In this document: one piece after another, positions 12,666-40,263 of the stretch | Layout: each line of letters starts with the position of its first letter | Numbering within the stretch: the first letter of the stretch is position 1 | Assembly: GCF_964355755.1 (NCBI RefSeq) | Contig: NC_092674.1 | Coordinates: 19,866,001 to 19,930,000 of the forward strand | Direction of reading: 5' to 3' | Length of the DNA stretch: 64,000 nt | DNA from: Antedon mediterranea | Lineage: Eukaryota > Echinodermata > Crinoidea > Comatulida > Antedonidae | Translations under genes and position numbers: made by a program | Notes under the pieces: generated by a model | The model's input: the letters and a program-made list of their open reading frames with translations, nothing else | Database searches by the model: none | What the model was told of the DNA's origin: nothing

Positions 12666-14751
12666 CTCTTCAATATTAAAATGGAAAACACTCAATAGTT
12701 AACTGAGGGTTATTGTATGTTTTGTATCGACATTTTTATGGTGAATTTATACGAAAATATTGTAAATGAATGCTTTAAATTGTTCTGTTTTTAAATTGGA
12801 AAATGTATTATTTAGTATTCGAATGGATTATAGGAATAATCCATTTTGATGTGCTGATTTCAACAGTTTGTCATTTTTATCCTTACAAAAAATTAAACCT
12901 AAGTATATTTTTTATAGTGCGGAGTTGATTAACTACAAAATTAATTTGTTTAGGTTTGTAAATATTTCCGATGTGCAGTGTAGCACGGTATACTAAGCCA
13001 AAGGTGACGACGTGTTCTCGATGCGAGTAACTGTTGTCATCAATTGTAGAGAAATACAAATTTAAAAAAAACTAAATAAAACAATTTAATGTTGAACATT
13101 CTAATTATTGTATAAAAAATAAGTTGAGATGTAGTATCTTATTGAAACTCAGTAAACATTTTCTTAGAAACCTAGCCTACAATTCGTCTGGGCCGCAGGT
13201 GGTGGAATTGGTAACTGTAAACTGCTCCAAAGATAGAAAAAACAACTATAATACTAGACTTGCCCCAAGTCTGTATTGTTTTTTTTTTAATTTATTTGTT
13301 TTTATTTCGACCGTGATTTTTGTCTGAAAATACAGACAAACTCAAGTAATACACGTATGAAACGCCATATGTGCAAAAATATTTATATTTTTACTAATAT
13401 TAAGAAAAAACTCCGTCTGGAGCCCAGACTACTATAATACCACCGTTTGAGAGTGTTACATTTTAAAGGGGTGGTACATGACTGTAGCTTATGACTATTA
13501 AAGTAATTTAATGAAAGTATAAATATATATATATATATCTTTATTTTATGGAAACCTGCAGTGAAGTTAAACTTTTTTTGTAACCTAATCACCGACATTT
13601 CCAATTGATATTAAGTGATCATAATAAAACCACTGATTTGACGAACATTCTTTTTTGTCGTCTTTTATTTGTGTGTTGAGACCAAAGGTGTAATCTACTT
13701 AAAAGCATGGTTGGTTTGAGAATAAAATGACATGGACTACTTTTTGATAGAAAACAAATAATAAATTAAGACTTTGATTGATCGTCATAAAAAACTAAGA
13801 TCGAGTCTTCTGTAAAGGAAAACTCCGGATTAAATTGATTGATAAAGCAGAATGAGTCATGTGAAAGAAATCCTATCCTTTCTATCTTAACATTTCGAAA
13901 AACGGTCCTGTTAGCTCTTTTTTTTTAGGGGCTTATTTCACGATACTCGTTCTGCTTGCCGGTGATGAAAAATACATAGACTTTATTATCAATATTGTTT
14001 ATAGGGAGCAGGCGAACACTAAAGTTAGGTTTGCGGTGGTACATCACCATGTGTTTCCAAACTGAGGATGTCTCAAGGTTTCGATTGTTTTGTTCAACCG
14101 TCTTCTGAAAAAAAACTAAAGTATTTACTTAAAATAGCACAGTCTAATTTACATTAGGACGACAACGATCGATGATATGGATAATATGAATTTTTCCGCA
14201 TAAAACAAACGAAATAACCATCTATGCTGCCTTTGATGAAAATAATATTTCCACACGTCAAAATCAATTGTTGTTAGTATGCAAATAGGATTGTGCATGT
14301 GTATGGGATGGGATTGGTGGTTTATTCGCGGTCAATACGAGCCACAGTGTTTTATTTGGTTGATCTTTTACATTAGAGGGTGCCTCATGTATTGTATTGA
14401 ATAGCTTCTAATATTTTACTATTATTATTATTTGACTGTAGACCTACTACAGTAGATGACGTAATTAAGTTAAGTATTATTGTGCCTTGATCGCTAAATT
14501 GGTAGCGAAATATCTGTTTCATGGAAAATATAAAATCGGTATATTTGCAACGTATTTGGCTACTGGTGTCCCAGTGATGAATATATTTAAAACAAATCAG
14601 TAGTTTAAGAAAATCCTGTTATTTATGTACAGGCATAAGCGCGTCACTCTGGTTTGCTATGACGTAATAAGGTGCTTTCCCCTTCTGTCTTGTATGTTTT
14701 TGTTTGGTACAGCAGAGTGCAGAGTGAGATTCAAAAAGTACAAACAAGGCA
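12666..14751. other. Intergenic region between FReD gene and PUDP
   Basis: No further gene was recognised. The 3' UTR of the FReD gene begins here; a candidate AATAAA lies near 13074. (AT)n occurs near 13525-13540. The proximal promoter and 5' UTR of the phosphatase gene should lie in the last few hundred bases before 14752. Confidence 0.45.
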
Positions 14752-17149
14752 ATGTCTGCTCTTCAGAGGCCTAAAATAAGTCATGTCATATTTGATATGG
14801 ATGGTTTGTTAATTGGTAATTATAAATCCCATTTAATATTCTTATTTGATATTAGTGTGCATTGAATAGTCAATATAATATGCTATTTTTCGTAGGCTTG
14901 GGCTAGGCCTATTAAACCAGATATTCAATAACCGCGTATCATTCTTACTGTTTTAAATCATACTGTACGCATTTCGGTCTTGTTGTAAAGCGTTTCGGTC
15001 GCTTTTCGGTTTGACAAACTACAGTATTTATATCTATGCTTATGTAAATTAAACATTTGTATTTGAGCTCTGAATAAACGTTTAGGTCTAATACAATTAA
15101 TTTAATGAATGTTTTGCTTTCAAAATGAAAACATTCATGAATCATAGTGCTCATATTGATGTGCATGAACAATTTGCGTGATTTGACATTAATACTTTTT
15201 TTATTTAATTTCAAGCATGAAACAATAAAAATAAAATTATAACATTGCAATTTCAATCGAGTATTTTGATTCAAATTGCGCACAAACAAGCCAAACTTAT
15301 TTTAATAGTATTTGTTGGCCAAACAAGATTTAGTCAGAGTGAATGTTTGGGGCTTCCTATTACTGTTAACTGTGCCAAATTAGCTGCTGGTTTAAATTAA
15401 ACAGCCCTAGTCTCCTTAACATTTGACATTAACCTGTTGGAACTTTCATGAGTAGGCCTCGGACTAGAGTAATTAAAAAAAAAAAGATATATTTATCTGA
15501 AACCAGGAGGTATATTTACATTTTTTATGTGGTGGGGTGTATCACTAAACTTCATTTTCACTTACACTTAATGTTTGATGAAATGTTACGGTAAGTTTAA
15601 TAAGTAATGTGAAACACCGGGTCATCCGACATGCTCATTGCTTGACCTTAAACAAGATCACGCGACTTTAAATTTTTAAGCACCCATATATTTGTATTAT
15701 TTCAGATACAGAACGTTTGTATACAATAGTTTTTGAAGAACTCTGTTCTGAATATGGTAAAGCTTACACATGGGAAATTAAAGAGCAAAGTATGGGTCGG
15801 AAGCCTGGAGAGGGCGCTAAGATAGCTATTGATTCATTACAGTTGCCGTTGACAGTTGAAGAATTTCTTACAAAAGCTAAAGAAAAGCAAAGGAATGTTT
15901 TTCCACAGTGTTCACTTATGCCTGGTAAGATATCAAAAACAAAGATGTTGTATACATGGATCACAAATCTTAAGAACACTAAAATCAGTGGTTCTTATCC
16001 AAGGCCCACTTTGGTTAACAATGAAGCAAATTTAATAAGTGGTTTTGAATTTCTATAATTTTTCATAACAAAGCATCCAGAGGTTGAATTTGTGACAGAC
16101 ACTGAAATGTTATATATACTGTAGTGTATTTGCTTATTTTATCCCATGGGGGAAATCACTACAGGAAAATATTGAATAAACGGTATTCATGATTCAATAA
16201 CTGTTTTATCTAGGAGCTGAGAAACTTGTAAGACATCTACATCAAAGCAATATACCAATTGCAGTATCGACTGGCTCTGCATCAAAGATTTATGATGTAA
16301 AGACAACAAACCATAAGGAATTGTTTAAGCTGTTTCATCATATAGTGTGCTGTGGTGATGATTCTGAGGTGAAGGAAGGCAAACCACATCCAGCTGCTTA
16401 TACTGTTGCTCTACAGCGATTTGAAGCACCAATCCCAAAGCCAGAACAGGTGTGAAAGTCTGTTTATATAATGATGATAAATTGAACAATTAACAATATA
16501 AACTGAAACAATTAGTCATAACACCAAGCCTTAAACAATCCAAAATTAATGATAACAAATCTGTATGACACATTACAGTAAGTACTGTAAATGATTTATA
16601 CTGTGATTAGGTTTTTACGAATCCAGTTTAAAGTTTAGTTTACATTGAAAAGGTCTATTGCATATACAGTATGTCTAGCCTCACATTTAAGTTTTTTCAC
16701 AAATCTCAGTTTTTCTTTTTTCAAAATTACTTTAAAACTTCAAAATTCTGTTTACCATGCCTAAAATCACCAATCCTAGGCCACAACAATGTTGTGGAGA
16801 GTATGTTAATGAATTAGGAATATTTCAGCCTAGGAAAGTTTCAACCCAGTTGGCTTTGAGGTTTGGAAGGCAGGGTCATAATCACGTCGGCAACAATTTC
16901 AAACTTGACATGTATGCTATTTTCTCTATACTTTAAAATTGAACTAAAACTTTATCTGTCAAATTCCAGGTACTTGTATTTGAAGATGCACCAAATGGTG
17001 TCAAGTCAGCAAGAGCTGCAGGGATGCATGTGATCATTGTTCCGGATGATCGATTAGATGAATCAAAGTCAAAGGATGCACAAATGCGCTTGAAAAGTCT
17101 TGAGGATTTTGTGCCAGAAGAATGGGGCTTGCCTGCATATGACAGTTGA
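14752..17149 (+). CDS. PUDP: Pseudouridine-5'-phosphatase-like HAD hydrolase (PUDP/HDHD1)
   Basis: Four exons (14752-14815, 15706-15924, 16214-16449, 16970-17149) join in frame to 232 aa, near the usual 214-230 aa. HAD motif I is FDMDGLL (nucleophile D15, acid/base D17). Motif II is VSTGS (T114). A Lys in the EGKPHPAA segment serves motif III, and motif IV is VFEDAPNGV with D179. The cap segment between motifs I and II (KEQSMGRKPGEGAK, residues about 45-60) and the C-terminus ending in EEWGLPAYDS are typical of the PUDP/GS1-like branch rather than other HADs. The known role of the family is Mg-dependent dephosphorylation of pseudouridine 5'-phosphate in the cytosol; activity here is inferred. 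A candidate polyadenylation signal (AATAAATAAA) lies near 17361. ZNHIT1 converges from downstream. Confidence 0.9.
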
Positions 17150-18425
17150 TTACAATTATTGCCTGACTACTTTATTTCTAGGCTTAACAAACAGTGTGGC
17201 TTTTAATTACAATATTTATAATAATTACACCTTAAATTTAAAAATGAACATTGGCTGTAATGAGAGTGATGAACTTCATTGGTGTTGCAAATGCATAATG
17301 GTTAGACAGGAAATTAAGCTGTATTGTATTATCTAATACAGTATTGCAACAAGAAAGGAAAATAAATAAATAAGCACCAATTGTAAAGTGAGCTTTATCT
17401 TCAAGAATAATCTGCTGATGCGTATAAGCCCAATACACCATTCCGTTTATTATTTTCGTCCTTTATCCTAAAATGAAATCTCGCAATTACTTGAACAGGA
17501 CACTTTCGAAACAACTGTATTCTTAATTTCAAATAACAAGATTATAATTCATTAATATATTTTTTCGTAAGGTGACAAGATGTACTGTACTAATAGTTTA
17601 CATTTTGAGGTTAGCTCTAAATGAAATTGTCTTGCACTTGCACTAACTTTCCACATGGATTGCAAAGTATAAAAAGTTATCTATACAATATGAATGAAAT
17701 ATGTATAACTATAAATACTGTTACAGATTGTTTTTATTACAATTACAGCAGATCTCCCAAACTCACTCGGTATTGCCGAAAAGCTCACGATATTTTGAGT
17801 CATCTCCCACAAAAAATGCAATTTCTTACCATATTTTTGACAACCAAAAAAAATCTCTTATAATTTCTACTATTCTAGATATTGATGAGAGAATAGAAAA
17901 CATACTAATTTCGGTCTGCAATATGTTTAATAAGTTAAATAATGAGTTGGTACAGCATCTATGGCAAGTATTAGACTTGCCAATATTTTTAGGATTTTTT
18001 TATAGCGCACTCTATGGCTTGATTTATAATTATAGAGCCCTCTATAGTTTCATAAAACCTCCCAATATTAATTTTTCCAAGTTAGGAGGTCTGTACAGTA
18101 ATGTATGCATTCCAAATTTATTCTTCCTTCATTTTTTACAAAAATCTATTCAAATACAGTAATAATTCATGAACTGGTGTTAAATTTCCCTTCTGAAAAA
18201 TGACTGACCAAAAGTACATGTAAGACCTGTACATCAATTCCTCTTTCAAAACTTCATATTTTCTATTTATGCTTTGATGGAAATTGTCATCATCATCATT
18301 TGTATAACTGTGTGTTCTCTAATATACATATGCTTTTTTGAGATGCACGGTTATTGAGCAAAAATGACCAATATTTAATGTCTTTTTTCAATCATACTGT
18401 GCTCCATTATACAGTTGTCTTTGTC
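17150..18425. other. Convergent intergenic region, PUDP and ZNHIT1 3' ends
   Basis: Contains the PUDP 3' UTR on the plus strand and the ZNHIT1 3' UTR on the minus strand. The 153-codon open frame at 17701-18162 is AT-rich, shows no recognisable domain, and is not supported as a gene. Confidence 0.5.
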
Positions 18426-21400
18426 TCACACTGTCCATTTAAGACACCTGCAAAAATAATACCAATTTATAGTAAGTACTTTTTATCATGTATGTAATGT
18501 ATATTTTAAATTTGGAAAGATGTTAATAAAGTAACAATTAAATTATTTTGGTGTTATGTAATATTTCAGAGTTTCTTATGCATTTCCGCAGCAAGTTATG
18601 TGTACAGTATATTATCATAGTGAGCTATTATCGCTACCTAGGTTATTATTTGTATTTGTTTGGATAACGTAAAAACTAAAAGACGCATATTTACTAAATA
18701 GACAGTTATAAACATATAGATATGTGGTCACAGACAACCCGGAACAGCATCCTAATAAAATGGACCACTTTTTATTATTTTACTTAGCCCATCTGTCAAA
18801 AATACAAGCCAGATCTTTATCATGATTCTCAACCCTTTTTCTTGTTTTACTCCGGCTGCGGGGGTTCAACTCTCCGATTGCTCTTGTTGTAAAATATATT
18901 CTTACCTTGTGTCTTGATGAGTTCCTAAACATTTAACACAACAGTATCTAGCACCACATGAAACACAAGTATAATTTGAAGGAAATGTGAACAGCAGTTA
19001 AGGAAAAGAATTCATCATATAAAAGTCATGTTGTAAACCAGACCATATACTGCACAGGTTCAGTACTTGGTTTATAAAATACTAATTGTTTGATAATTTT
19101 CCAACTAAACTAGCCCTAGCTGACTGATTAGAAGAGATGGTAAAGTTATGTTCGTTAATACAGTATATGTCGATACTGCACACAGTCATGCAATTAATTT
19201 ATAATTATTAGCAATGGTGCAGTGGAGAAGAAAGTAGAAACAAAGTTATTTGTTATTTCTGATCAATTTCACTGTAATGTGATTCTTGAGTGGTAGGTAC
19301 AGTAGTAAAACAGACACTGATGGGAAAACAAAAATTTATATTGAAATTTATAGATTAGAAAAAACTTTAGTAAAGGTTATTTACTACCCATGCAATCTGT
19401 ACTATATTATTTTGTTGTGTAGTGGTAATTCTTCCTTTTTGTATTGTATTTTTAATAGTTTTAAAAATGTTATGACACAAGCTTTTAATCTGTATGTATT
19501 ATACATAACCTAGCTTTTAATGTATATTTGTGTATTTAGTTGTAATCTTCTGAATTTGTATAGTATATTTTTTTTTTGTATTTCATGCCAATTTCAAATG
19601 AATTTCTATTTATTTTACTATAGACAATAACATAATATCAGTATCAGTATTCATGTAAGTTTCTTAGTTATATTGGGTCCATTTTATTTATTATTGTTTT
19701 ATCAATCAATTAAGGATTTTTATCATTTCTACATTCAAACAATATCAAAAGGATATCCACAGACATTACAGAAATGCCTTTGAGGTAGAGTTGATGGCGA
19801 TACACCAGCTGTGAAGTAGGTATTTGGTTGCATGTTACTTGTCTGTTCCTCTTCTAATAGCATATTGAACGTCTTGCGAAATCGCTGTTTAAAATGGTCT
19901 CCTCTTGTTTTTCTTTTTTTCTTAGGTGTATTTGATGCTGTAAGTGTAAAGTGAACATTTGATAATTTTTATATTAAATATACTAATAGTGCCGGATATA
20001 TTTTTGTTGGTGTGTTTTGATTACCAACAATGACATATTTTTCTTGCAACATTTTAAAACTATTCCGATTTCACAATAGCTAGTTTGACATCACTTTTGA
20101 TAAACAAGCTAGTAATTTATGTGAACCTAAAATGATCTATAGAATAACCACCCTAACATGATCTAGTGGAATATGTTGGAGAATAAAGATAAGATTAGGA
20201 GATACATAAACCCTACATACACATTTCTGATGGAAAGAAAAGGAGAACTTCTGAATATCAGCTAACCCACTGGAAAGGTTACACTCTTTCCGGTTGAAAT
20301 AACCTAGTTTAATTTGATAAATTAACTTGTTAACAAGTTAGAATCAACCAATCAGCATTTGATTAAGTATCCAAGTCATTGCACACAACCTTATTAGCTC
20401 AATTACCTATAATAGATCATGATAATAATGTATATGAATCATACCTTATCATGCCAAAGGTTCAATACAATAGTTTGAAAAATTTTACTGTTGAGTATAG
20501 TTTTTTCGGAGTATTTTGAGCATTGTGTTGTAAACGTTTTCTATTGGAATGATTTTCTGTTTGTTATTCAAATACAAAAGTACTCAACGAATCTTTATCA
20601 TATTTTGACAACAAAAGTATCAATATGGTATAAACTTATAAATTCCAACAACCCAAAAACCAACTATAACAAAACAGATTAAATTAAGAGTTCAAAAGAA
20701 TAAACAATAAAAATACCTGGTTCTTCATCAAACTGAGGTAATTTCTTCTTGAGTAATACAAGATTAGCTTGAGGATCTTCCTGGAAATTGTCCTGCTCCA
20801 GTGCATCAAGCTGCTTTCTCATCCGCTTGGCACGGGTAAATTTATCAAGTATACGGCGCTGCTGTTGGTCTCTGATGCGCCCTTTTTAATGACACAAAAC
20901 AAAATATTTAATTTAGCTATGAGTATGATCTAAACTTTAAAAATTGAGATAGGCCTATGCAATGCCCTAGTAGGTCTAGGCCTTGTATTAATATTATTAA
21001 TATTATGTCTACATAAAGCGCATTTGTTGATTATTCTCTCCCCTCCTCGACGATCCATCTTGGCCTCACATCAACTCGGCCAAAAACTAATCGGTCAACT
21101 TGGCCCCATTAAAGTATGGAACGCAAAATGTGCAGACGAAGCGAATTGCAAAAAGAATAAAATAATTTTTAATATAGGCCTAGGCCTATTAGTATTATAT
21201 ATTTTTTTATTTTACTGTATTAATCTAATAATATCTACCTAATATATCTGAGAAGATGACGCGAGGCCGAATTGACTTGAATTGAGGGCGAGTTGACGTG
21301 GGGCCGACTTGACTTTGGCCGAGACGGTTTATATTATATTTATGATCGCAACGCAAGTTGGCCTGCACTCAACAAAAGAAGGAAGGGCCATCCATGAGAA

Positions 21401-21765
21401 TAGACCTACGCTGCCTAGGACTCGAGACTAGGCCTACTACTAGCCTAGGCTAGGGCTAGCCTGGCACTATATGGCCTAGTACATAGTAGCCTATCCCCTA
21501 GGTCTAGCCTAGCCTGGTAATGGTATGGTAGAGAGAGAGTGCCGAGATACTGCTGAGTGCGTGCGATCGAAGCGAGAGCCTACTACCCTAGCTAGGCTAG
21601 TCAAAAACATTTTTAAAAAGGGGCCTAGAATAAGACAATCATTTCTTTGATATTCCCATGATGAATAATTAGTGTTTATTTCTAAAACAATATTGTATTT
21701 ATAGTAATAAGTGTGTTACAAAACAAAATATCTTTACGTATACCCGATTCACGTTTATCAGCCAT
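18426..21765 (-). CDS. ZNHIT1: ZNHIT1, zinc-finger HIT protein (SRCAP/SWR1 complex subunit)
   Basis: Minus-strand exons in transcript order are 21765-21744, 20881-20717, 19937-19757, 18986-18906 and 18447-18426. They sum to 471 nt, 156 aa; human is 154. The N-terminus MADKRES is followed by a helical region ending QLDALEQDNFQEDP, then LPQFDEEP, the basic motif KKKRKTRGDHFKQRFRK, and a C-terminal HIT zinc finger. The finger has Cys/His ligands in HFCNVCGFP, TCVSCGARYCCVKCLGTH and RCLKWTV. ZNHIT1 helps the SRCAP/SWR1 remodeller deposit histone H2A.Z in the nucleus. The fourth splice pair is AT-AC of the minor spliceosome (separate entry). The first donor is ambiguous: exon 1 could end at 21738 instead, adding two residues in the same phase. 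A foldback-family fragment sits in intron 1. Confidence 0.93.
18987..19756 (-). other. ZNHIT1: AT-AC U12-type (minor spliceosome) intron of ZNHIT1
   Basis: Read on the minus strand, the intron begins ATATCCTTTTG (U12 5' site consensus ATATCCTTT). Near its end it has TTTTCCTTAAC, the exact U12 branch-site consensus, then 11 nt to the terminal AC. Only this AT-AC splice restores the frame: TGTGG joins ATTTCCT to give CGFPSNYTC, the expected zinc-finger sequence. No GT-AG pair nearby does so. The intron is 770 bp, phase 2. Confidence 0.95.
21048..21331. mobile_element. Foldback-family fragment (GGCCGAGTTGAC modules) in ZNHIT1 intron 1
   Basis: The left part holds TCAACTCGGCCAAAAACTAA and AAAGTATGGAACGCAAAATG. 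The right part holds GTTGACGTGGGGCCGACTTG and TTGGCCGAGACGGTTT. Both match the two ends of the element at 28107-28903. The interior is a different AT-rich sequence with AGGCCT runs, so the copy is internally deleted or diverged. Confidence 0.7.
21395..21605. repeat. CTAG/AGGCCT-rich island 1
   Basis: The stretch is saturated with overlapping CTAGG, TAGGCCTA, GCTAGGCTAG and GTAGCC words without a fixed period, unlike the surrounding AT-rich DNA. It lies in ZNHIT1 intron 1, close to the presumed promoter. Confidence 0.7.
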
Positions 21766-22612: not shown

Positions 22613-22688
22613 ACTAAAGTCTTTAAAAAATGTTTTGTTTTGTAATGTTACAAATTACAAATGTATTATTTTTTTACTTATAAATTAA

Positions 22689-23731
22689 TGCCGTGGCTAA
22701 AGATACGGTACCGTATCCTAACTTCCGTTTACTAAAGGTACGGTAAAATTGCATTACGTCATAATCAGCCAATCAATGGGGTGCTGGTACGTGTGTGATG
22801 TCATCGTATAAGGACTTTGGATTTTTTTTCACATCGCATCTGTAGAGAATGCCTATCGGCGGCGCCAGGTTGCATGGATGTGTGCGCTGATGATTCTGTG
22901 ACTCAGCCTCGGGGCTAGACCTAGCAATATGTTGAATCCAGAATCGTTGATGCTGTAGTAATAGAGCAAGATCATGTGGTTTGTGGACGTTACATAAAGC
23001 GTTTAAAGCATGCACTCAATCTCAAATATTATTTCATTATAAACCATTATACACTACACTACAGTAGAAATATGTTGATAGCCAAATTAGAAAAAGGAAT
23101 TATAATTCAATGTTGGAAGTTGTGTTCATTCGTCCATAGTTACACTATGAGTATGAGGGTTTTATTTTTATTCCAAATGGCCTATTTACTTTAGGCCTAT
23201 ATTTTTTAATACACTTTGTTTACAGATGGTGACCATAAACAAAAATCAAATGCGGACAATAAAGGGGCCCTCAAATACTATGACTTAGACAATAGACCTA
23301 GCCCCAGGTCTTAGTGACAGAAATCAGCACACACATGCAGCTGGCCCCAGCCTGGCAAACAAACTCATATACCGAGACTACAGGTTATAGCATGGTTATA
23401 GTACGTAGTAGGCCTCTTTTGAAACGGTAAATTTCTGTATTCTAGAATTAAAATCAACATGTTTTAGCCTATCAATAATAACAGACGTAGGCCTAGGCTA
23501 CATTTAGTTTTGTCACACGACTGGGATAATAGCGATAAATGAAGCATAAAGAAAATGTTAAGCCGCCGGTTGATCACTGTTTTCGCGATATGAAAAAAAA
23601 TCCCAAGTCCTTATACGATGACGTCACACACGTACCAGCACACCCCATTGGCTGATTATGACGTAATGCAATTTTACCGTACCTTTAGCAAACGGAAGTT
23701 GGGATACGGTACCGTATCTTTAGCCATGGCA
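22689..23731. mobile_element. Mutator-like non-autonomous element with 9-bp target duplication
   Basis: About 156-bp terminal inverted repeats (TGCCrTGGCTAAAGATACGG outward) bound a 1043-bp element. It is flanked by perfect direct copies of ATAAATTAA at 22680-22688 and 23732-23740. Long TIRs plus a 9-bp duplication are the Mutator/MULE signature; other long-TIR groups cannot be excluded. No transposase is present. Each arm carries a CCAAT motif and, near its inner end, TGACGTCA (right arm, exact CRE) or TGATGTCA (left arm). The element lies about 200 bp before the ECT2 start codon, probably in a 5' UTR intron. Confidence 0.85.
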
Positions 23732-23941
23732 ATAAATTAAAGCCATAGCTTGTGTGTCCCTCGACAATTTTTTTATTAATATTCTTTTCCAAAAAGGGTG
23801 GGAGGCCCAAATAATTAGATAGGCCTAGGCTTAGTGGGTCACCCACCACAATTACTGTACATCTGAATGAACATAATTGTATTTTACACTTATTAAGTAT
23901 TCTCATATTTTCAGATCTAAAGGATAAGTAAACTTTTAAAG

Positions 23942-26900
23942 ATGTCATCCATTTTGTTAGCGCAAGAGTCTCAAATTGACATGAGTTATGCTTGTCAAGG
24001 TGACCAGACAGTTCAAGAAGATCATTGTAAGTTCACATGCAGAGATTAGTAAACATAGTAATTAAGTGAGAATATCAAACAGCCAGAAAGATACAAGCAG
24101 AGATGTATCATCTATGTCCTAGGTTGGCTAGGATTCATTCCGCATCAGTCAACCCGGGAAATTCAATGACCAAGATAAACTGCACTGTTGCACTAGCTTA
24201 CAATTGTACATTTGTTCCTAGTTGTCTATGACCCAGTTTACACAATTATGGATAAATCTTCTCAATTTACAGTTTATGAAAGTGATTACTGATATATGAT
24301 TTATTTTAAAACAGCTTTTTAAAATTTCAATCTTTCATAAATATATACATAAAATAGTAGATTTGAATGTAAATGTTTATCACAGGTGAAGAAGAAATGA
24401 TACCACTTGATGTTCGTATTTGTGTTGTTGGTGAAGTACTTGCTGATAAAATTGAGCTTGCACGTTCCTTAGAGGTAAGATTTTTGTGCCTTTTATTATT
24501 TAAGAAGTAAATGCTTTGTGAGGAAAAGAGTAAGAGTGAACAGAGTTATGGATTCATAGTAGTTTCTTGTTTTATATGTTTAATTTTGTGACAACCGATG
24601 ACTTATGACATCCTATGAAGGTACTATTCACGTTGTTACGTTTGGTTTGGTAAAGTTGCCAGACTCAATTTTCATTGATTCTAAATCCAGATGACGACCC
24701 CACATAGATTATGTTACATTTTGACCCTTTTTTGGGTCTACAATCGTCACAAAAAAATGAGAAATTGGTTAAGGACATTGTGTTTCATTGTTGCTAACTG
24801 TTTTTGTGAAAGAGAGAAGATTATTATAATTATTATGTGTGTTTATTAGAGAAGTATTCATTGTTAATAATCAACACAGAGTCATATACACCACCTGTAA
24901 TTATTAACCAAAATGTTTGTTAATGTCAATGCTTTAATTTTGTAGAAACTGAAGTTTCCTGTTTTGTACTCGCCTGATGGTAGTGAATATTACCAGCACT
25001 CTGAGCAGTTTGACACTGTGTTTGTCATTGATAATTTTGAAGGAGCCTTATTCAAGAGACTAGCGCAGTCAGAACATCGTGTTATTGGACCTTCTGTTAT
25101 CTTGAGTTGTGCGAAAGATGCTCAGGTTTGTTATATCTCAGTCATTTCTGTTTAATCAAAGAAAATCATCTATTGCAAAAATTTTGGTACAGAAAGCTTA
25201 TAGGTGTCATCAAATGTATACTGACCACCTAGATGTATATTGTTATATGTAAACAATAAAGCATTTTTGTAATGCACATCCAATGCCAGCAAAGTGATTA
25301 CTTTGGTCAGGGAAGAGTCAAATTTCACTACTTTTCCCTGCATTGGTTACATCATCATGCTTATAAAATAAGTCTCATTTAAGGCCTGTAGAGTGAATTA
25401 AAAGCAGGGTAAGGAGTAAACCCCTGACCTTGGGATTGTATCTTATCTGCCTGGTTTTTATTTTATTAAATGACCATGGATACTGTAAACTTTGAAATTA
25501 TTATTATTATTATTGTGTTTTTTAGCAACTTCCCTATAACTCAAGGCCTGTTTACTGCCAGCATATGTCAAAACTTGTTGTTTGCTTCACTGGATTTCTG
25601 GAGAAGGAACTCCTAAAAAGAATGGCAGAGCTTGTACATCACATGGGAGGCAGTGTCCGTAGAGAATTCACTTCTAAAGTCACGCATCTCATTGCTAACA
25701 CACCTTCTGGAAATAAGTATAAGGTGAGAAAGTATATCAAATTTGAAATTGATAATTTGTCATTGAAACTTGTGACCTGTGTATTCACACTTAAAAGGAC
25801 AATTGACAGATAAATAGGTAATAATACCAGCTGCTGAATACCATGGGATTTTAACATACTTGAAAGGCCTTTTAAAGCTTGGTATTTTTAAAATGGTATC
25901 GACTAATATAATTATGTTGCATCTAAATTATTGTAATATTTGGGATGGAGAAATTGTGGCATATTGATATTGCGTAAACTGAACTGGCTTCCTCATTTAT
26001 AATAAACAATCTATTGGACTATTCTAGTTATATCATTTTTAAATATTAAAACCCTATTTTTTCACATTTATTTTCTGTAAATTTAAATATGATTTTGTAA
26101 AAATGAAAATAATTATCTTCCTTAAGCTGCTTTCACATGACAGCCAAATTTGATCCAGCATCTGGCATCCTGAGAAAAATTTTGTGGAAAATGGATTCAG
26201 TGGTAAAGCATAGGATTGTTCATATAAAAATCATACAATTTTAATCCATACCTAATTCGAACTCGAGCGATGGGTCAAGAAGCCATTTGCTGAAATTGTA
26301 CAATTTTTTCTTTTGACTGAATGACATCGCTAGACAACGGATTATCAAATTCATGCTCGATGTGAAAGCTCATTCATAGCTGAGGAGCTATTGAAGTAAT
26401 TGCCTGCAGATATACAATCATTAGGTCTATGTAGTCTTGAGATCTTTCCTAAATTACAGGTTAATGTGTACACATTGTGTGTGTGAAAGATAAATAAAGA
26501 AAGTAATAATTTTTGCTGAATTTTATTACGTTTTAGGCTGCTGTGAGTCTGGGAACTCCTGTCATGACACAACAGTGGGTACATGAGACCTGGAAGAACC
26601 GTGATGATATCAGCATCAGTTCACTCTCGGACAAAATGGTAACTTAATTTTCAAAGATTCACTTCCTACCTGTTTATTTGCAGTTAAATTTTAAAACAGT
26701 ATAGCTACTGTATTATTAAATATTAATAGTTCATATTAATGCATTGAATATAAATAAGCTGGATATGAGAATGGTTCAACCATCTTCTTGACAAACTTTG
26801 AAGATTGTGTCTTTAAAAGTAATAGGGACTTTACGAAATAGGGTAGTACGACAAATATCCTGTGTTCGCTAGAGCATAAAATCATATACAGTCAACATAG

Positions 26901-38213: not shown

Positions 38214-40263
38214 TATACATAGGCCATATGACTGGAGGCCAAGCACCCAGTCTTTTTAAATGGCCTAACAAATAGGGGAGAGTTAGCTATGGACACGATC
38301 ATTTGTTTAACATTGCTTGGCAAGCTGTGACCACCATACCTACATTGTATCGCCTTGTAGTATTCTATCTATCCCTACTGATAGTTTTATTAATTACAAT
38401 CTATATATGTGGTGATTGGGGTTTAATCCTGTAATGAGAAACTGAAATGTTGTAAATATGATAAGTAATAATATTCTGTATAGTTAGCATTATTATTTAT
38501 TTTACATAATTAAGAATGGGAATAATTGGACTGAAAGTAGAAGATGGAACACAGAACATCTACCCCATGAACAATCATCCTTAGGCTACTGTTCTAGGAT
38601 AAATACCAATCAGGACATCTACCCCATTCATTAATGCTTAGATAGTAGCTGACATGTCGGGGGTTTGTCCTGAATCAAAGAATAACCTGGGACCTTCATT
38701 CATGAAAGTCTGGCTTTGAGAGATCTTCTGATTTGATTAAGTTTCTTGATGTCCAGTGGTTAGGAAAGTTGAATAATATTGTACGCTATATTTAAATTAG
38801 AATGACAAATATAGACGGCACTACCACACACAACCATATCCTTTCAATGTTCGTAGTGATATTGATTTCTCTATATTTTTTTGCATTTACAATCACACAA
38901 AATTATTTTTGTCTACAATGTTGGATTTAGACACCATGACCTGTTTTTTTGGTATTAAATTATGATTTTTATTTCTGTGTGCTATCAATTAAGAACTGAA
39001 CTGATTATTTAATTGTTTTACTTCCTTTAGATATTTTGTAATTTACATGTATTTCCTCCAAAGAGGATACTATTTATTTACAATTCTTTTGAATGAATGA
39101 AATGTTGAATTAACTATTTTGAAATTAATAATAATAATAATAATTGATGCAAAATTACAGCAAAGTACTTACTACATTTAATTTAAACTTCTTAATCTGT
39201 CAACTGTTGGCACTGGTTTTATTTCTGTAACCTACTGTGTAATGGGCCTAGTTATTTTACTGTGCAGTTGGTGTATTATATTTAAATGAAAATGGGTGTA
39301 CCGTCTACTACAAATACCTAATTAATTCATATTCGTTTGTTCCTTTATACTGTTCCGTTTCACGGAACGGAAGACAGTGCCGTTTTGTTGAAAAATTATT
39401 ATTAATTGATTGACAACAATTATGTTAACAAATATTTGTTTTGAATGTATTTCAGGACTAATGTTAAAATAAATTACTATAGGATTTACAATGCCAATTC
39501 AACTCAGTCAATGTATATTAATACTGTAGTACTGTATAAAATAATTCTTAAAATGATATGGTATAGTTATCACAACATTAATGGAACTGATAACATGTAA
39601 TTGTTATTTGTATTTAAAATACATATACTGTAATAATAGGCTAATTGGTAAGAATAATAATTATGAATCATTCCTCTTAAGTTTGTTACATTTGTACTTT
39701 AAACTTAAAATTGGTGGCCCGGGTACAGTATTAAAAAAAGTGTATTTTCATTCATATTTGCACTAAAAAATGAACCTTTAGTGGACTTGTCGCCATATAG
39801 CCCTACTGAACACTCGTGTTACTAGAACCAATCTAAACGTGTATGCCTAATAATTCATATTTTAATGGCCGTGGTTTGTGGAAATACTATTTAAAAAATC
39901 TAGCGTTGTATGCATTTATCGAATAAAAAAAATGACGATTAAAAGTATATTTATTATTAGTTTAATTAGCATTTTGCGATGTTTTTTTATTTCGCACAGA
40001 GCCTTCTACATTGTCCTGCTATGGTCTAATAACGATGTGACAATAAGCAATCATGATAATGCTGTCATGAAGATATTTTAGAAAAAAAATCCTGACATTG
40101 GCGTGTGTTTTCATTGAATTCCTTGTCACTGACTTTGAAAATGTTCATGAAAGAAATTTAGGATCATTTTTCTAACGGTTAAGTCAAAGATAACTTTCAA
40201 TAATGTTTCCCAAGACCATCCACATTTCTACAATAGCCTATTATTGTTACGCGTTTAGTTTAA
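38214..40263. other. Intergenic, no gene seen
   Basis: AT-rich sequence downstream of ECT2 with scattered TACAGTA words and a short (AAT)n run near 39127. The open frames present are short, AT-rich and lack recognisable domains. Confidence 0.5.

Follow-up and report, generated by a model that had tools for sequence, protein, structure and literature searches.

A predicted U12-type AT-AC intron within the HIT zinc finger of ZNHIT1 in the crinoid Antedon mediterranea

The 64,000 nucleotides of Antedon mediterranea DNA analysed here (“the window”) contain a complete ZNHIT1 gene, which lies on the minus strand between positions 21765 and 18426 and comprises five exons. The coding part of exon 1 (21744..21765, encoding MADKRESG) begins with an ATG at 21765 and ends at a GT donor, from where the reading frame runs on into exon 2 (20717..20881), a segment defined by GT-AG flanks and homology to human ZNHIT1. 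Exon 3 (19757..19937) follows an AG acceptor, is likewise supported by homology and stops inside the zinc finger's first CxxC (...HFCNVCG), directly before an AT donor. Exon 4 (18906..18986, FPSNYTCVSCGARYC...), recognized by homology and by the finger itself, encodes what remains of the HIT zinc finger, and exon 5 (18426..18447) supplies the C-terminus CLKWTV, identical to that of human ZNHIT1, and the stop codon. Joined, the exons yield an uninterrupted frame of 156 amino acids that aligns with human ZNHIT1 from end to end (E 1.6e-60), and the HIT zinc finger is found in the predicted protein. Introns 1, 2 and 4 have GT-AG termini. No second copy of ZNHIT1 was found in the genome (354 Mb, 18 contigs searched), leaving a single locus, and collections of viral and prokaryote contigs yielded no intron-bearing relatives of the gene. 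A COX1 search revealed no mitochondrial sequence in the assembly. An automated annotation based on GT-AG introns would probably miss ZNHIT1 or truncate it at the finger.

ZNHIT1 is flanked by genes on both sides. Tail to tail with it, the plus strand at 14700-17150 carries the exons of a hydrolase of the HAD family (Pfam Hydrolase/HAD_2), possibly a pseudouridine phosphatase of the PUDP/HDHD1 type. An ECT2 gene is positioned head to head with ZNHIT1, and its exons at 24946-25813 (plus strand) match the BRCT0 and twin BRCT domains of ECT2. Upstream of ZNHIT1, inverted repeats at 22681-23739 enclose about 750 nt; their arms measure 93 nt (22681-22773 and 23647-23739, 95%) and 60 nt (22778-22837 and 23585-23644, 93%), and the element looks like a non-autonomous DNA transposon.

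Intron 3 of ZNHIT1 (18987..19756, minus strand) is 770 nt long, has a G+C content of 26%, lies in phase 2 and carries the termini AT and AC. Its borders read ...TGTCTGTGG/ATATCCTTTTGATATT ... TTCTTTTCCTTAACTGCTGTTCAC/ATTTCCTTCAAAT, the intron starting with ATATCCTTTTGA and ending with TTCTTTTCCTTAACTGCTGTTCAC. According to Basu et al., U12-type introns are marked by a /ATATCCTT donor combined with TCCTTAAC located 10-15 bases upstream of the 3' end (PMC2426677). Both hallmarks are present: the 5' splice site ATATCCTTT (19748..19756) matches the consensus at 9/9 positions, and so does the branch site TTCCTTAAC (18997..19005), for which the pattern sought was TTCCTTRAY at a distance of about 10-15 nt from the 3' end. 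The second A of the branch site is 18998 and the last intron base is 18987, in agreement with the 11 nt from branch A to AC end given in a preliminary description of this DNA. The intron terminus is AC, and the junction 19757/18986 keeps the protein, encoding CGFPSNYTC where the human protein has CGFPSPYTC. From these signals, ZNHIT1 intron 3 is almost certainly a U12-type AT-AC intron, whose removal by the minor spliceosome is predicted. The preliminary description had proposed such an intron at precisely these coordinates, and the sequence, the minor-spliceosome genes of the genome and a control intron in PHB2 all support it.

For PHB2, the intron listed in Drosophila is of the AT-AC U12 type and that listed in human is of the U12 type (PMC2831892). 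In the PHB2 gene of A. mediterranea an AT-AC U12 intron was also found (ATG/ATATCCTTT...AACCTTAAC...GTAC/CTG; context ...AIM/ATATCCTTTCTAA ... AACCTTAACATTGATTTGTAC/LGEAI...), removal of which restores AIM/LGEAI; the query was the human protein. The anatomy of this intron is that of ZNHIT1 intron 3. More generally, AT-AC (A-type) U12 introns, such as those of PHB2 and STX6, share with it the ATATCCTTT donor, the TCCTTAAC branch site at 10-15 nt before the intron end and the AC terminus, whereas the ZNHIT1 intron differs from these two in its host gene and in its position between the first CxxC and the remainder of the HIT finger. The GT-AG U12 introns, which make up the majority of minor introns, share the spliceosome, the donor core TATCCTT and the branch site with ZNHIT1 intron 3, but differ from it in the terminal dinucleotides. 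The class of AT-AC U12 introns is well known, and the ZNHIT1 case is a new but ordinary addition to it.

All four minor snRNAs are present in the genome (354 Mb, 18 contigs) above the Rfam cut-offs; within the 64-kb window Rfam detected none of them. U12 (125.7 bits, E 1.1e-24) and U4atac (97.6 bits, E 1.5e-15) are each represented by one gene, U6atac by one clear gene (136.6 bits, E 1.6e-33) and U11 by two (88.6 and 82.9 bits, E 1.1e-14 and 2.3e-13). The U12 gene carries GTAAGGAA, which can pair with TTCCTTAAC leaving one A bulged, the 5' end of both U11 genes is AAAAAGGG, complementary to CCTTTT of the donor, and U6atac carries AAAGGAGAG. The two U11 genes, on contigs C5 and C8 (L002:1501-1629 and L003:1501-1628), have diverged yet appear intact. 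A second U6atac copy (L005:1501-1602, 33.7 bits) is shortened and degenerate and is probably a pseudogene. Among the protein components, CENATAC is present as collinear exons, and the DIM1 family comprises two genes: the first is TXNL4A-like, and the second, diverged and TXNL4B-like, is probably TXNL4B. In human cells CENATAC is required for virtually all A-type minor introns; these depend strongly on this factor, and their splicing is less efficient than that of the GT-AG type (PMC8280824).

Most likely, ZNHIT1 intron 3 is an old intron that has been kept, not a recent gain. It interrupts the frame in phase 2 at the position of human Gly121 (predicted c.362/363). Minor-intron densities in deuterostomes are vertebrate-like and fairly even, tunicates excepted (PMC10639083), and the usual directions of change are loss of U12-type introns and conversion from U12 to U2, where losses outnumber conversions and AT-AC introns seldom convert to the U2 type (PMC2831892). 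Taken together, the even densities, the rarity of AT-AC conversion and the excess of losses over conversions make retention of an old intron the most likely history. A lineage-specific gain, or a conversion from U2 to U12, is improbable: it would run against these usual directions and the fairly even deuterostome densities, and nothing positive speaks for it. The words “in this lineage”, used in the preliminary description for the dependence of H2A.Z loading on the minor spliceosome, imply a peculiarity that finds no footing in these densities or in the share of AT-AC introns among human minor introns, which amounts to ~24% (PMC8280824). In a literature search neither ZNHIT1 nor the Arabidopsis gene was named as a minor-intron gene, a weak negative result as gene lists are usually placed in supplements; where ZNHIT1 and splicing occurred together, other matters were concerned, e.g., skipping of mouse Znhit1 exon 2 upon loss of CWF19L2.

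U2-type AT-AC introns are known in some genes (PMC2831892; PMC8280824), and intron 3 might accordingly be removed by the U2 spliceosome, either as such an intron or through a GT-AG junction nearby, reads across the latter having been named in advance as an observation that would speak against a U12-type intron. When all frame-keeping joins were enumerated, nine restored the zinc finger, with the terminal pairs AT-AC, TA-CA, AT-AT, TC-TT, CC-TT, CT-TC, TT-CC, TT-CT and TT-TT. No GT-AG junction is among these nine, and AT-AC (19756/18987) is the sole recognized pair. Exactly CGFPSNYTC results from three joins, so that the claim that this splice alone rebuilds the sequence does not hold literally, but stands once recognized termini are considered. 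Nine GT-AG or GC-AG alternatives near the junction are open, and each of them deletes at least half of the finger. Furthermore, exon 4 is preceded by over 60 nt that contain no AG, and hence a U2-type acceptor could not restore the finger. The U2-type AT-AC introns of sodium-channel genes have a G at +5, whereas the ZNHIT1 donor has C at this position and the U12-type CCTTT from +5 to +9, together with a perfect U12 branch site at the canonical distance. Removal of intron 3 by the U2 spliceosome is therefore very improbable.

Taken singly, neither U12 motif is rare. RTATCCTTT occurs twice in the window against 2.4 expected, and the branch site combined with AC once against 4.0 expected; what carries weight is that both motifs occur at one junction whose place is set by homology. 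With the window modelled as a first-order Markov chain, the chance that any of the nine joins combines a perfect donor with a branch site that is likewise perfect and lies 5-25 nt ahead of an AC or AG end is ~1.4e-8. The second perfect donor motif is found at 38836-38844 (plus strand), in keeping with a number of donor motifs at chance level for the window. As a candidate U12 intron it was rejected, given that the same strand offers no partner branch site and no gene is evident there, and it is attributed to chance. That the locus might be a pseudogene or an assembly artefact with a broken finger, as the interruption of the genomic frame at the finger could suggest, can hardly be entertained in view of frames and splice sites intact in 5/5 exons, a full-length alignment with the human protein and the status of this locus as the only ZNHIT1 of the genome.

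As a U12-type intron, ZNHIT1 intron 3 would be removed by the minor spliceosome via the established pathway. The donor would be paired by U11, whose place U6atac would then take, and TTTTCCTTAAC would be paired by U12 with the branch A bulged. Joining of GG/A would restore the glycine within the zinc finger, and CENATAC and TXNL4B would lend the help that they give to A-type minor introns in human cells. In an unspliced message, the open frame of exon 3 ends at 19735 with an in-frame TGA (19735..19737, minus strand; ...CGYPFDIV followed by the stop). Retention would thus place a stop ~20 nt inside the intron and leave a protein without most of the finger, and nonsense-mediated decay of the intron-3-retaining message is expected.

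A genome has minor introns in only a few hundred of its genes, and these host genes set what fails upon failure of the minor spliceosome. Human ZNHIT1 is specific for SRCAP, and when it is lost H2A.Z deposition is deficient, from which it would seem that EP400/TIP60 does not make up for the loss (PMC10027472). Since ZNHIT1 is single-copy in A. mediterranea and SRCAP-specific in human, it may reasonably be inferred that SRCAP-type H2A.Z deposition depends on minor splicing, the role of the crinoid protein being assigned by orthology; the dependence of H2A.Z loading that the preliminary description had asserted as a fact is kept at this strength. The more far-reaching proposal, that the intron is lineage-specific and minor splicing rate-limiting for SRCAP-type H2A.Z deposition, as a regulatory link that other animals lack, is decidedly improbable. 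With a minor intron placed within the finger of a single-copy, SRCAP-specific subunit, H2A.Z deposition would be one of the processes for which minor splicing could be limiting in this animal.
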